Source of the DNA: a virus
Virus record (IMG/VR): IMGVR_UViG_3300040801_000557
Location: 1-23,857 of that record
Direction: 5' to 3' (one strand)
Length of the DNA: 23,857 nucleotides
The notes under the pieces: generated by a model
Database searches by the model: none
Seen by the model: the letters and a program-made list of their open reading frames with translations, nothing else
What the model was told of the DNA's origin: nothing
Position numbers and translations under genes: made by a program
Shown here: positions 1,984 through 8,038 of the stretch, piece after piece
Numbering within the stretch: the first letter of the stretch is position 1
Layout: every line of letters starts with the position of its first letter

Positions 1984-2453
1984 CCGCACCAAACATGCTC
2001 ACCATGGCCCGCAACATCCTCAAGGAACGAGGGGAGCAGCGGGACTCCGAAGAGGGCGAGCGTTCCATGGCGAAGGCTGTGACGATCTTCAACGCCGCGA
2101 GTGCACACAACCTCAGTGAGGTGGATGGCTGGTTGTTCCAGCAGTGCCTCAAATTGGCCCGCGAGAGCCAGGGTGTCTTCCACCTGGATGATTACATCGA
2201 CGGCATTGGCTATGCAGCTTTGAAGGCCGAGGCAGCCCTGAAGGCCGAGAAGTACCGCATGGAATCCGAGGAGGTCCCGGAGCAGTACAATCCCATGCGA
2301 AACGGCTATGGGATTGTCCCCCCGCCGCCCCCGCCGCCTTGCCCACCACCACCACCGACCCCTTGGGTCTGGCCCAATAAACGCCCCGACGCCGACTTGA
2401 CCCATAAACAGGTCATGAACGAACTCTGTGCATATGTGAAAGGTACCAACTAA
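1971..2453 (+). CDS. DUF6378-like phage protein with a polyproline tract
   Basis: The 160-aa product has the layout of the phage DUF6378 family: ILKERGEQRD at 16-25, an Asp/Trp-containing helix (SEVDGWLFQQCLKLAR, 49-64) and LDDYIDGIGYAALKAE at 72-87. That family is widespread in phages and its biochemical role is not known to me. After this domain comes a polyproline run interrupted by one Cys (residues 117-129, bases about 2319-2357), then a Lys/Asp-rich C-terminal stretch. The proline run would cause ribosome stalling without EF-P and probably acts as a rigid linker. The start overlaps the exonuclease stop by 13 bases, and the stop shares one base with the reductase ATG (TAATG). Family call is from memory of the pattern. 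Confidence 0.75.
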   Translation: MDSLTAPNMLTMARNILKERGEQRDSEEGERSMAKAVTIFNAASAHNLSEVDGWLFQQCLKLARESQGVFHLDDYIDGIGYAALKAEAALKAEKYRMESEEVPEQYNPMRNGYGIVPPPPPPPCPPPPPTPWVWPNKRPDADLTHKQVMNELCAYVKGTN

Positions 2454-4153
2454 TGGCTCAATACGGACCCAAGACCCGATTCGCGCAAGAACTCCACAAG
2501 GAAAAGTACCGCCAGGCGGGCGAGGAGTTCCGGGACTACGCCAACCGGGTGGCCAACGCCCTGTCGGATAACCCCGAGCACTTCCAGGCTATGAAGGGCA
2601 TCCTCCGAGACCAACGCTTCCTGCCCGGTGGCCGGATTCAATCCTCGGTCGGCTCGATGCGCCGCACGACGGCAATCAACTGCTTCGTCTCGCAGCATGT
2701 AGACGACAACATGGATTCGATCATGGAAGGTGCTACCAAGGCTGCGCAGACCATGCGGCTCGGCGGCGGTATCGGGTATGACTTCTCGGACCTTCGGCCC
2801 TTTGGGGATCGCATCAAGTCACTTGATTCCAAGGCAAGTGGCCCTGTGAGTTTTATGGGTATTTTCGATGCGGTCTGCCAAACCATTGCGTCTGCCGGCC
2901 ATCGCCGGGGGGCACAGATGGGGGTGCTTCGTATCGACCACCCGGACATCCTCCGCTTCATTCATGCCAAGCGGAACAGTGACGCCCTTCAGGGATTCAA
3001 CATCTCCGTTGGAGTGACCGACGAATTCATGCGGTCACTGAAGAACGGCTTCATGTTCCCATTGCAGTTCGATGGTAGGGTGTATGAGTTGGTCGACCCC
3101 CGGTACCTTTGGGACGAGATCATGCGCAGCACCTGGGATTGGGCAGAACCTGGTGTATTGTTTATTGACACCATCAACCGCATGAACAATCTTCTCTATT
3201 GCGAGGAGATTAGTGCGACCAATCCGTGCGGCGAACAGCCACTTCCCCCCAACGGTGCATGTCTGTTGGGATCATTCAACCTTACCAAGTACGTCAAGGA
3301 TGCAGTCGACGGGCGCTACTTCGACTGGGATCAGTTCGATGAAGACATCCCCAACGTAGTTCGGGCCATGGACAACGTGATCGAGGAGACCCTCTATCCA
3401 CTTGAGGCCCAGCGCCAGGAAGAACTCGACAAGCGGCGGATGGGGCTCGGGATCACCGGGCTGGCGAATGCGCTTGAGGCCCTTGGCCTTCCTTACGGTA
3501 GCCGTCAATTCCTGGTGGTCGCAGAGGAAATACTCGAGTTCCTACGTGATGGGGCCTATCGGGCATCCGCACTGCTGGCCTGCGAGAAAGGAGCATTCCC
3601 GAAGTACGACTCCCGGTACCTCGAAAGCCAGTTCATTCTTGGGCTTCCAGTGGACATCCAGGATCTAATAGCGCAGCACGGCATCCGCAATAGCCACCTG
3701 CTCAGCATTGCGCCCACCGGGACCATCAGCTTGACCGCGGACAACGTGTCCAGTGGGATCGAGCCGGTATTCGCCCTGACGGCCGAGCGCACCGTGCAGA
3801 CCATGGATGGCCCGAAGAAGGAGGTCCTGAAGGACTACGCCTATGAGGTCTTCGGTGTCAAGGGGCGGACTGCCAACGAGGTGAGTGTCCAAGAGCACCT
3901 GGACGTGCTGCTGCTGGCCTCGAAGTACGTGGACTCAGCGGTGAGCAAAACCTGCAACGTCGGGGATCACGTCACCTTCAATGAGTTCAAGGACATCTAC
4001 CTCAAGGCATGGGAGGGTGGGGCCAAGGGTATCACCACCTTCCGGGCAGCCGGCAAGCGGTTCGGTATCCTCAACGTAGTGAATGAAGGCGATGAATCGC
4101 GGGCCGAGGCTTGCTATATCGATCCCACTACCGGGACTAAAACCTGCGAATAG
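2453..4153 (+). CDS. nrdJ: Ribonucleotide reductase large chain, probably class II (adenosylcobalamin-dependent)
   Basis: This 566-aa enzyme reduces ribonucleotides to deoxyribonucleotides. FLPGGR at 56-61, NCF with Cys77, NPCGE at 257-261 (Asn257, radical Cys259, Glu261), GACLLGSFNL with Cys270, and APTGTISL at 420-427 match the ten-stranded barrel; Cys77 and Cys270 would be the redox pair. Class II is inferred because there is no small-subunit (nrdB) gene, glycyl-radical domain or activase in view, and the C-terminus lacks the paired tyrosines of class I. The N-terminal ATP cone is absent, which is usual for short phage enzymes. The C-terminal pair Cys554 and Cys565 could be the shuttle thiols, but ten residues separate them instead of the usual two to four. 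The start shares one base with the preceding stop. Confidence 0.9.
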   Translation: MAQYGPKTRFAQELHKEKYRQAGEEFRDYANRVANALSDNPEHFQAMKGILRDQRFLPGGRIQSSVGSMRRTTAINCFVSQHVDDNMDSIMEGATKAAQTMRLGGGIGYDFSDLRPFGDRIKSLDSKASGPVSFMGIFDAVCQTIASAGHRRGAQMGVLRIDHPDILRFIHAKRNSDALQGFNISVGVTDEFMRSLKNGFMFPLQFDGRVYELVDPRYLWDEIMRSTWDWAEPGVLFIDTINRMNNLLYCEEISATNPCGEQPLPPNGACLLGSFNLTKYVKDAVDGRYFDWDQFDEDIPNVVRAMDNVIEETLYPLEAQRQEELDKRRMGLGITGLANALEALGLPYGSRQFLVVAEEILEFLRDGAYRASALLACEKGAFPKYDSRYLESQFILGLPVDIQDLIAQHGIRNSHLLSIAPTGTISLTADNVSSGIEPVFALTAERTVQTMDGPKKEVLKDYAYEVFGVKGRTANEVSVQEHLDVLLLASKYVDSAVSKTCNVGDHVTFNEFKDIYLKAWEGGAKGITTFRAAGKRFGILNVVNEGDESRAEACYIDPTTGTKTCE

Positions 4154-4258: not shown

Positions 4259-4494
4259 GAACCATACAGGATCAGAGAGTGCGTATCAGACTTGGCTGGG
4301 CCATTTTCAACACCATCACAGGGGCTCCTGTACGAACAGGCCCCAGAGGGCATCGAATGCCGAAGATCTACTCATCAGTGAAGCGGGCACTGCTTTATTG
4401 CAAATCCCCGGAACACATCGTCGTGCCCGTCGTAATCGACGTGCCAGATAGCTTGGGAGAAACGAATGAGCTACATCATTCTGGAAAACCGTGA
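4255..4494 (+). CDS. Hypothetical protein, 79 aa, GTG start
   Basis: The GTG start overlaps the stop of the tiny upstream gene by 4 bases (GTGA), with AGGGG at about 4244-4248 as a possible ribosome-binding site. The sequence is polar with a basic N-terminal half (VRIRLGW, TGPRGHRMPKIYSSVKRAL) and a short beta-like stretch (HIVVPVVIDV). I do not recognise a family. Its 3' end overlaps the next gene by 29 bases in another frame. Either the overlap is genuine, as is common in phages, or the C-terminal residues are unimportant. Confidence is moderate because it rests on context only. Confidence 0.55.
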   Translation: MRTIQDQRVRIRLGWAIFNTITGAPVRTGPRGHRMPKIYSSVKRALLYCKSPEHIVVPVVIDVPDSLGETNELHHSGKP

Positions 4495-4666
4495 TTCCAA
4501 GGAATGGAAGGAAGGCTACGAGAACGGCAAGAGCGGTGGGGATTGGTTGTCGGATTGCCCATACCCCCTTAGAACCCCCGAAATGAACCAGTGGGACTAC
4601 GGCTGGTCGGCGGGGCATGAGGAATGGCGGCGGGCCAACCCCGCATGGCTGGAGAAGACACTATGA
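4466..4666 (+). CDS. Ribosome modulation factor (RMF)-like protein, 66 aa
   Basis: The pattern EGYENGKSG...DCPYPL...QWDYGWSAGHEEW (residues about 15-55) matches the small RMF family, in which E. coli RMF reads RGYQAGIAGRS...MCPYQT...QWLGGWREAM. The shared features are the GY-x2-G-x2-G turn, the Cys-Pro-Tyr triplet and the W-x2-GW-x2-G helix. In bacteria RMF binds 30S subunits and promotes inactive 100S ribosome dimers. Whether this phage copy touches ribosomes is inference. GGGAGA at 4455-4460 lies 5 bases before the ATG. The stop overlaps the next ATG by 4 bases. The match is by eye, so the family is likely but not certain. Confidence 0.68.
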   Translation: MSYIILENRDSKEWKEGYENGKSGGDWLSDCPYPLRTPEMNQWDYGWSAGHEEWRRANPAWLEKTL

Positions 4667-4848
4667 CGAACAGAGACCCGAACACCCGCATCGGTCGTAT
4701 TGCTGTCTTCAAGCTCAATACCGGGAGGGTGATTACCGGCCTAGCCACTTCATCGCTCTTCGCGTACACCGAGAAGCTCCCCGACTTCTCCCATTGGGGG
4801 ACCGAGGAATTCATCATCGACATGACACCCCCCAAAGAGGCAGCGTAA
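4663..4848 (+). CDS. Hypothetical protein, 61 aa
   Basis: I chose the ATG at 4663 because it overlaps the preceding stop (ATGA) and has GGAG 8 bases upstream; a longer in-frame start at 4624 lacks such a site. The sequence (RIGRIAVFKLNTGRVITGLATSS..., then EEFIIDMTPP) looks like a small beta-rich fold, perhaps an SH3-like barrel, but no family is recognised. The stop codon shares a base with the next ATG (TAATG). It belongs to the chain of small coupled genes between reductase and thymidylate synthase. Confidence 0.6.
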   Translation: MTNRDPNTRIGRIAVFKLNTGRVITGLATSSLFAYTEKLPDFSHWGTEEFIIDMTPPKEAA

Positions 4849-5355: not shown

Positions 5356-5579
5356 AACTTCCTGATTTCGGCGAGCTTCCCAAGTGGGCCAACTACGTTG
5401 CCATGGATGCCAATGGGGATTGGTGGTGCTACGAGGTAGAGCCCAAAGCTAAGGACGGAATGTGGAGCAGTCAGCATGGTTGGTGTTTGGAATGGGTTCG
5501 CCATGGGGAGGGCTGGGTTGACTCCCTTCACCGCGTTGCCCGTGAAACCCAATTCATCCAGGTAATGGTGGAGGAATGA
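5352..5579 (+). CDS. Hypothetical small Trp-rich protein, 75 aa
   Basis: The start overlaps the previous stop (ATGA), with AAGGAG at about 5338-5343. The sequence is rich in Trp (LPKWANYVAMDANGDWWCYE, HGWCLEWVRHGEGWVDS) and reads as a compact beta-sheet protein. Proteins with the opening LPxWAxYVAxDxxGxWWxYE recur in phage early regions, to my recollection without known function. The stop overlaps the ThyX ATG by 4 bases, so both are probably translated together. Confidence 0.65.
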   Translation: MKLPDFGELPKWANYVAMDANGDWWCYEVEPKAKDGMWSSQHGWCLEWVRHGEGWVDSLHRVARETQFIQVMVEE

Positions 5580-6259
5580 GCAAATTCATAACTGCTAAGC
5601 TTATCCCCCAGCTGTCCATCGGTTCCGACTTGGAGATTGCCAATGCTGCGCGTCGTTCCTTCGATACCGAGCATGAAGTATGGCAAGTCGCCGATGCAAG
5701 GCTCGTCGCTTTTCTGGTCCGGGAAGGCCATTGGCTGCCATTCCGCCATCCTCAACTGTCTTTCGACTGTGCCGTTCCCGTATTCGTCGCAAGACAGCTT
5801 GGAAAGCATCAAGTCGGGATGTCGTGGTCGGAGGTAAGCCGCCGGTACAAGACCGAGGGCATCGAGTTCTGGGAGCCAGAGGAGTGGCGTGGGCGTCCCC
5901 CGGAGAACATCAAACAGGGCACTGGTGAGCCTCTGTCAATGGGGGCGCAGGCCGACGCATCGCGCATCATCCAACGGGTCCATACCTTCACCTTCTGGGC
6001 ATACAAGCGGCTGCTGGACCTCGGGGTAGCGCCCGAGCAGGCCCGCTCCGTCCTCCCGCAATCCATGATCGTCAAGTACACCTGGACCGGCTCATTGCTG
6101 GCATGGCTGCATCTGATCAAGGAACGCAATCATCCCAATGCCCAGCAGGAGACCACCCAGTTCGCGGAACTGATCATGGAAGAGGTAGCGGAGAGGTTCC
6201 CGGTCACCTGGGCAGCCATCGTCAACAAGATCCCACAGGACTTGCCACATGCAGCCTAA
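5576..6259 (+). CDS. thyX: Flavin-dependent thymidylate synthase (ThyX family, divergent motif)
   Basis: ThyX makes dTMP from dUMP with FAD and NADPH and methylene-tetrahydrofolate. The 227-aa product fits the family in length and order: GHWLPFRHPQLSF (51-63) is the H-x2-PF-x-H helix, and residues 73-91 carry the signature region RQLGKHQVG...SEVSRRY. ARSVLPQSM (156-164) and TWTGSLLAWLHLIKERNHPNAQQE (169-192; quoted as start TWTGSL and end NAQQE) cover the substrate-binding C-terminal part. The signature differs from the canonical RHR-x7-S: here KHQ replaces RHR and eight residues precede the Ser. Similar variants are known in some phage ThyX proteins. It sits with reductase and MazG in a dNTP-supply block and overlaps its neighbours by 4 and 11 bases. 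Confidence 0.88.
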   Translation: MSKFITAKLIPQLSIGSDLEIANAARRSFDTEHEVWQVADARLVAFLVREGHWLPFRHPQLSFDCAVPVFVARQLGKHQVGMSWSEVSRRYKTEGIEFWEPEEWRGRPPENIKQGTGEPLSMGAQADASRIIQRVHTFTFWAYKRLLDLGVAPEQARSVLPQSMIVKYTWTGSLLAWLHLIKERNHPNAQQETTQFAELIMEEVAERFPVTWAAIVNKIPQDLPHAA

Positions 6260-6539
6260 GGACACCGTTCAGACCATCAACTTCAAGGGATACACCAACT
6301 CCAAGTGTGAGTTCTTCCCCTGCCACAAGGGGGTGAAGCCTGAAGAGTTCAATTGCCTCTTCTGCTATTGCCCCCTGGTCTTCCTTGAATGCCCCGGTCC
6401 CTATGAAGTCTTCACCGACGCCAATGGGATCAAACGGAAGGACTGCACCAACTGTACCTTGCCACACAAGGGTATCGTGAAGTCGTGGAACTTCATCCAA
6501 CATCAACTCAAGAACCCCGTCCCATGGGGTGGAGAATAG
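6249..6539 (+). CDS. Cys-rich small domain protein (PF04071/COG2158-like), probable metal binding
   Basis: The 96-aa product has eight cysteines in the spacing of the 'cysteine-rich small domain': CEFFPCH at 20-26, FNCLFCYCPL at 34-43, CPG at 48-50 and KDCTNCTLPH at 64-73. These Cys and His residues almost certainly bind one or more metal ions or a cluster. In bacteria and archaea the domain is often found near, or fused to, cobalamin-synthesis proteins; that is recollection, and its biochemical role is not established. Here it follows ThyX, with an 11-base overlap, in a phage that also encodes a B12-type reductase. The surrounding part (SWNFIQHQL, 79-87) also fits the family's C-terminal pattern. 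Confidence 0.82.
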   Translation: MQPKDTVQTINFKGYTNSKCEFFPCHKGVKPEEFNCLFCYCPLVFLECPGPYEVFTDANGIKRKDCTNCTLPHKGIVKSWNFIQHQLKNPVPWGGE

Positions 6540-7090: not shown

Positions 7091-7100
7091 GGAGACACCC

Positions 7101-7451
7101 ATGCACTTCTCTGACTATCAATACGAAGCCTGCACCTTCATCGCATTCCCGGAGGATGCTGCGGTCACCTACCCACTGCTGGCCCTGCAAGAGGAAGTCG
7201 GAGAGGTGTCCGGGAAGGTCGCCAAAGCTCTGCGTAAGGGCTGGCTGACTGGAAATGCCCTCCAGGTTGGGAGGTTCCCCCCGGGCCTGCTGCGTGAGGT
7301 GGAAAGCGAGCTTGGGGATGTCCTCTGGAATGTCGCCGTCCTGGCCAAGGGGCTCGGGCTGTCGCTGGAAGACATCGCAATCGGCAACCTGGACAAGCTG
7401 GAGGCTCGCCGGTATCGGGGTACCATCATCGGAGAAGGGGACAACAGATGA
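7101..7451 (+). CDS. MazG-like nucleotide pyrophosphohydrolase
   Basis: The 116-aa product has the all-alpha NTP pyrophosphohydrolase layout: LLALQEEVGEVSGKVAKALR (26-45) with the first acidic motif EEVGE, and ESELGDVLWNVAVLAKGLGL (68-87) with the second motif E-x3-GD, followed by DIAIGNLDKLEARRYRG. These acidic residues hold Mg2+. The family hydrolyses (d)NTPs to monophosphates and pyrophosphate, and phage MazG has been proposed to alter nucleotide or ppGpp pools. The start at 7101 is fixed by AAGGAG just after the previous stop. An unassigned insert of about 20 residues (WLTGNALQVGRFPPGL) lies between the two motifs, not unusual in phage versions. Confidence 0.86.
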   Translation: MHFSDYQYEACTFIAFPEDAAVTYPLLALQEEVGEVSGKVAKALRKGWLTGNALQVGRFPPGLLREVESELGDVLWNVAVLAKGLGLSLEDIAIGNLDKLEARRYRGTIIGEGDNR

Positions 7452-8038
7452 TCAACTTGAAAGAGCTTGCGGCGTTTATCGTGACGTGGATACTGTTTGT
7501 CCTGGTCCTGTCAGTGGTAACACCTGCAAAGGCGATGAGCTATGAATGGATGATGGATGCGAACGGCACCCCAGTCCTTGGTGGTTCGATCATCATTCTC
7601 ACAGGTGAGATCGTCCCAGGAGACGCAGAAGTCCTCAAGGAAAACCTGGATCGGTTCCCAGCCATCCATACAGTCATGCTTGAGGGGAACCCCGGCGGAT
7701 CAGTCATGGAAGCTATCGAGGTTGGGCGGTTGCTCAATCAACGTGGGATCCAGACCGTGGTCACCGGGGTATGTGTGTCGGCCTGCCCATTGGTTGCCCT
7801 CGGCGGTCTAGCGCCCCGTGTGGCGTCTACCGGGCTGGTTGGCGTGCATTGGATGTGGTGGGACAACCCAACCCCCGAGGCGGGGTATCAGGCCCAGGGG
7901 ATCCTTAGGGATACCTGGCAATACCTAGATGAAGTTGGCGCTAAGTCGGAAGCTTTCATGAAGCTGATGCTTGACGCCGGCCAGGACATTGATGTTCTGA
8001 GTAAGAATGAACTGAAGAACATAGGTTTCCTGGAGTAG
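7448..8038 (+). CDS. Exported ClpP-fold serine protease-like protein (COG3904 type)
   Basis: The 196-aa product begins with a hydrophobic export signal (residues 8-24) and a possible AKA cleavage site at 27-29. The rest has the crotonase/ClpP-like layout: GGSIIILTGEI (45-55), the oxyanion loop NPGGS at 81-85, the nucleophile region GVCVSACPLVALGG with Ser111, and GLVGVHW with His134. This is the pattern of the periplasmic Clp-like proteins of COG3904, whose members usually read C-x-SAC. Predicted location is periplasmic or anchored in the inner membrane. It overlaps MazG by 4 bases and is the last plus-strand gene before the shared terminator. The substrate is unknown; proteolytic activity is likely but unproven. 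Confidence 0.8.
   Translation: MINLKELAAFIVTWILFVLVLSVVTPAKAMSYEWMMDANGTPVLGGSIIILTGEIVPGDAEVLKENLDRFPAIHTVMLEGNPGGSVMEAIEVGRLLNQRGIQTVVTGVCVSACPLVALGGLAPRVASTGLVGVHWMWWDNPTPEAGYQAQGILRDTWQYLDEVGAKSEAFMKLMLDAGQDIDVLSKNELKNIGFLE

Follow-up and report, generated by a model that had tools for sequence, protein, structure and literature searches.

A small phage protein with a probable distant relationship to the Rmf/CrpP fold family, apparently retaining the scaffold of ribosome modulation factor but not its rRNA-binding surface

Does a small gene lying downstream of the ribonucleotide reductase of a phage encode a factor that acts on the ribosomes of its host? The initial annotation of a gene at 4466-4666 in the viral record IMGVR_UViG_3300040801_000557 called its product a phage-encoded protein like ribosome modulation factor (RMF), on the basis of three short motifs. 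RMF drives ribosomes into inactive dimers, and a phage copy, it was proposed, could redirect host translation, protect ribosomes for late infection or oppose hibernation. The sequence in the record comes from a viral fragment of 23.9 kb, and the window referred to below is this whole stretch of DNA at its full length of 23,857 nucleotides. An early-type cluster on the + strand runs in the order DNA polymerase A fragment, 5'-3' exonuclease, class II ribonucleotide reductase (RNR), the 4466-4666 gene, small ORFs, ThyX and MazG, and is followed by the head and packaging genes on the - strand. The features of the window used here are as follows.

2453-4153, + strand: class II RNR, the upstream neighbour, in the same cluster as the RMF-like gene
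4450-4465, + strand: Shine-Dalgarno-like GGGAG and spacer, 5' of the ATG, read from the sequence
4466-4666, + strand: gene for a probable small Rmf/CrpP-fold protein, from profile searches and HHalign, with single-model matches below threshold
4514-4528, + strand: codons of G17-Y18-x2-G21, aligned with G16-Y17-x2-G20 of RMF
4556-4564, + strand: codons of C31-P32-Y33, aligned with the loop residues C29-P30-Y31 of RMF
4592-4615, + strand: codons of W43-x2-G46-W47-S48-x-G50, aligned with W40, G43, W44 and R45 of RMF
4663-4848, + strand: 61-aa ORF, its start overlapping the RMF-like stop codon (ATGA)
5576-6259, + strand: ThyX thymidylate synthase, same early cluster
7095-7451, + strand: MazG-like pyrophosphatase, same early cluster

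The 4466-4666 frame looks like a genuine gene, with a good ribosome-binding site (TTGGGAGAAACGAATG, with GGGAG immediately 5' of the ATG at 4466), GC contents at the three codon positions (0.52/0.47/0.73) akin to those of the RNR, ThyX and MazG genes, and translational coupling of its stop to the ATG of the next ORF through an ATGA at 4663-4666. The product of that next, 61-aa ORF matched no Pfam family. Elsewhere in the cluster, a frame next to ThyX (6249-6539, + strand) encodes a zf-like Cys-rich small domain (PF04071, E = 1.5e-15), and the product of 7448-8038 (+ strand), with no Pfam match and a weak match to PHROG 30575, has a hydrophobic stretch at its N-terminus together with a GNPGGS...GVCVSACP pattern, giving the impression of a secreted ClpP-type serine protease fold. 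The portal protein of the window was 28% identical to those of LUZ24-like phages and its RNR at most 67% identical to other viral RNRs; searches for sister phages with the portal, terminase and ThyX returned one close contig of 4.2 kb (L082), which does not include this region.

The encoded protein is 66 aa long (MSYIILENRDSKEWKEGYENGKSGGDWLSDCPYPLRTPEMNQWDYGWSAGHEEWRRANPAWLEKTL), and the GY-x2-G (residues 17-21), CPY (31-33) and W-x2-GW-x2-G (43-50) motifs on which the initial annotation was built are all present in it. The last glycine of the third motif, however, lies outside the RMF pattern and was wrongly counted as an RMF trait, E. coli RMF having A47. A clear match to the Pfam RMF family (PF04957), proposed as the check on the annotation, was not obtained: this was the sole model reported at E<10, with E = 0.0095 and 16.4 bits, 11.5 bits short of the gathering cut-off of 27.9. 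Similarly, the single NCBIfam match was to the Rmf/CrpP model NF041886 (E = 0.0081, 15.7 bits, cut-off 28), with none reported to NF041887. PHROG gave no match, and no close relatives were found in the viral contigs, genome contigs or named phages searched. By sequence, the PDB gave only a meaningless match, to LEAFY (E = 0.54). Since a tblastn search of the named phages with E. coli RMF itself returned no match, single-sequence searches are evidently too weak for this family.

For comparisons at the level of profiles, a cellular profile was built from Rmf/CrpP proteins of bacterial genomes, leaving out the window and marine-phage sequences, and a diverse profile from cellular and named-phage members thinned to 60% identity, excluding the window protein. 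The 4466-4666 ORF ranked first with both, at 18.4 bits among 21,464 six-frame ORFs with the cellular profile and at 21.5 bits among about 21,500 viral ORFs with the diverse one; the 21,464 ORFs came from 156 viral loci and the window, one locus (L001) being a copy of the window that contributes the same ORF again. The bare protein scored 18.8 bits against 13.0 for the best of 20,000 shuffled versions with the cellular profile, and 22.0 against 12.7 with the diverse profile, so that with either profile none of the 20,000 came within 5 bits of the true score. Using HHalign, matches to Rmf/CrpP with probabilities of 92.9% (cellular profile) and 96.3% (thinned profile) were obtained. Judged on these profiles, rather than on the curated thresholds, the 66-aa protein very probably belongs, as a remote relative, to the Rmf/CrpP fold family.

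An AlphaFold2 model from the single sequence was poor (pLDDT 48) and was set aside, while an alignment of 22 sequences (the protein and 21 relatives, RMFs included) gave a model with a pLDDT of 83 and a pTM of 0.69, which is partly circular, RMF sequences being in its input alignment. In this model two main helices are joined by the CPY loop and followed by a C-terminal helical extension. Structural alignment with VIA-align placed chains of E. coli RMF first and second (9iot_y, Z 6.3; 6h4n_v, Z 5.0), with rmsd values above 6 angstrom, and Vibrio RMF fourth (Z 4.5), and the unrelated chain C5a fell in the same range (Z 4.7); Foldseek returned no significant match for the model. We treat an RMF-type hairpin as a tentative prediction from this modelling.

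In E. coli RMF, alanine at each of the fully conserved residues abolished or nearly abolished the formation of 100S dimers (Yoshida et al. 2021, PMC8126665). Seven of these residues are related to structure or to the loop (G16, G23, C29, P30, W40, G43, and W44), and four are basic: the single substitutions R3A, K5A and R11A each did away with 100S formation, and with R45A it was faint, with R3 and K5 touching helix 28 of the 16S rRNA and R45 the anti-Shine-Dalgarno region (PMC8126665). Of these 11 residues critical for dimers, the scaffold residues are kept in the 66-aa protein at seven of seven positions (G17, G24, C31, P32, W43, G46, and W47). R3 and K5, in contrast, have no counterpart, R11 is replaced by K12 and R45 by S48, and the protein is acidic (pI 4.81, net charge -4) where E. 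coli RMF is strongly basic (pI 10.86, net charge +7). Compared with the RMF family (PF04957; Rmf of E. coli, 2JRM and chain v of PDB 6H4N), the protein is alike in scaffold and size and, by tentative prediction, in its two-helix arrangement, and unlike in its N-terminus, its charge, a longer loop before CPY and a longer C-terminus. The sequence suggests that the RMF scaffold has been retained and the basic surface that grips rRNA lost. With R3, K5 and R45 missing and an acidic pI, the driving of ribosomes into dimers should not be transferred to it from the RMF name, and of the description as a phage-encoded RMF-like protein we would keep the phage origin and the distant Rmf/CrpP relationship but not the RMF function. 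On this evidence the protein should not be called an RMF.

Acidic relatives without the basic N-terminus are also found in cells (L278, L307, and L311). Some proteobacterial genomes (L298-L311; G198, G190, G318, and G312) have up to six divergent Rmf/CrpP matches each, and several of the matches in L298-L311 are acidic and without the KRQKRD N-terminus.

Phage-encoded Rmf/CrpP-fold proteins are themselves an already curated family (NCBIfam NF041887). Of eight phage proteins scored against the NCBIfam models, seven passed at least one cut-off, the exception being an ORF of the marine phage CRP-212; the seven, from Streptomyces phages Eklok and Austintatious, Delftia phage IME-DE1, Caulobacter phage CcrSC, Stenotrophomonas phage BUCT548, Cronobacter phage VP8, and Brevundimonas phage Papperlapapp, are all annotated as hypothetical in their records. 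In Eklok gp6 (L343:1492-1662) and Austintatious gp5 (L350:474-638) the Rmf/CrpP fold is clear, and both genes lie in a head-morphogenesis cluster, directly after a capsid protease or MuF-like gene, an odd location for a ribosome factor. The window protein shares with members of NF041886/NF041887 (Eklok gp6, IME-DE1 AKG94475, and BUCT548 QIQ60783) the C-P-Y-P-x-x-T/S...W-x2-G-W/Y core as well as being encoded by a phage, whereas its scores lie under the cut-off of either model and a clear relative is lacking. It is most likely a divergent new member of this already known kind.

Function is a separate matter from fold. With the core of the fold kept and the rRNA-binding surface missing, binding to a protein is favoured over dimerisation of ribosomes, and the reading we prefer, to which we give about even weight, is that the product is a small, protein-binding accessory of early host takeover and not a hibernation factor. 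Its two helices and CPY loop would be packed through the W-x2-GW core, on a scaffold from which the basic surface used by E. coli RMF on 16S rRNA has gone, and it would make no 100S dimers itself. Early expression and a role in takeover are expected solely from the place of the gene among RNR, ThyX and MazG, and the partner may be a regulatory protein of the host or a component of the translation machinery. Precedents are the acidic Rmf/CrpP relatives of bacterial genomes and BatR (PA3049) of Pseudomonas aeruginosa, an RMF homologue that has the kinase SrkA as an interaction partner and no role in hibernation (PMC13411936). BatR is cellular and, by the account of that paper, much nearer to E. 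coli RMF than the 66-aa protein is, which shows that transfer of function from the RMF name fails even at closer range.

A question of origin, compatible with any of the functional readings, is whether the gene is orthologous to a gene of the HMO-2011-type marine phages. Tracing the window RNR led to these phages and their uncultured kin, which encode a separate RMF-like protein of 75-90 aa between the RNR and the structural genes, just before or overlapping MazG. Its core is Y-x2-GY...P-Y/F...EW-x-RGF, the P-Y/F being missing in HMO-2011 itself. The family is present in at least 250 viral contigs, and examples are as follows.

L339:5019-5255: HMO-2011 AFV50582.1, RMF-like, annotated as hypothetical
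L338:5013-5237: CRP-345 gp38, RMF-like, annotated as hypothetical
L356:3001-3264: CRP-1 gp29, RMF-like, annotated as hypothetical
L019:7613-7837: HMO-type RMF-like copy, lying after the RNR and beside MazG
L340:3977-4177: unannotated RMF-like frame of CRP-212, starting directly after the RNR
L341:3956-4159: unannotated RMF-like frame of ctYwJ313, slightly further beyond the RNR

The family matched Rmf/CrpP at 95% with HHalign, and so it and the window protein each match Rmf/CrpP separately; in a paper on HMO-2011-type phages the word "ribosome" does not appear. The neighbourhood is shared, with the class II RNR upstream in an early cluster and late genes further on, on the opposite strand, and MazG, an immediate neighbour in HMO-2011, CRP-345 and CRP-1, lies about 2.4 kb away in the window. 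The proteins themselves differ, those of the HMO type being basic (pI about 10 in HMO-2011 and CRP-345), often with Asn for the Cys and with Phe for W44. A direct HHalign comparison with the window protein gave an insignificant 3%, the HMO-family profile listed no window protein within its reporting limit, and a copy was detectable at only about 28 of 80 RNR loci and at none of the 15 whose RNR is nearest to that of the window, a few of the loci stopping shortly beyond the RNR. Because of the insignificant comparison and this patchy occurrence, these sequences cannot show a shared phage ancestor, and we regard orthology as possible but unlikely.

A less likely functional reading is that the protein binds the platform of the 30S subunit at or near the RMF site without dimerising ribosomes, altering initiation or competing with the hibernation factors of the host. 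The scaffold residues that alanine scans showed to be needed for binding (G16, C29, W40, and W44) are kept, early phage proteins that bind ribosomes are known, such as phiKZ014 (PMC10914614), and an antagonist of hibernation could pay, RMF being enriched in T5-infected cells mounting DRT2 defence (PMC11100668). Against this stand the loss of the contacts to helix 28 and the anti-Shine-Dalgarno region and the negative charge of the protein.

Chance resemblance, in which an unrelated small phage protein happens to carry GY, CPY and W-GW, would fit the single-model E-values, all near 0.01, and the failure to find relatives, but we consider it improbable given the shuffling results, the first rank with profiles that excluded the protein, and the fact that the ranks immediately below were taken up by a single further family of phage genes, that of the HMO-2011 type. 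More improbable again is a true RMF driving host 70S ribosomes into 100S dimers, which has the motifs and the weak PF04957 match in its favour and against it the distance from the gathering cut-off and the absence of three of the four basic residues, with the fourth changed to lysine, each of which is needed for normal 100S formation.

Many unrelated phages encode small Rmf/CrpP-fold proteins, and the ones checked here carry only the annotation hypothetical. It is a doubtful proposition that the small Rmf-like proteins encoded among the early nucleotide-metabolism genes of abundant marine podophages, that of the window included, represent a recurring phage device acting on host ribosomes or the control of hibernation, repeatedly acquired and remodelled from cellular Rmf/CrpP proteins. 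The probable retention of the RMF scaffold without its rRNA contacts in the phage protein described here calls for caution in annotating such proteins as hibernation factors. The gene of the HMO-2011-type phages, which encodes a basic protein and is conserved among these dominant phages of the sea, offers a concrete candidate for asking whether phages touch ribosome hibernation.
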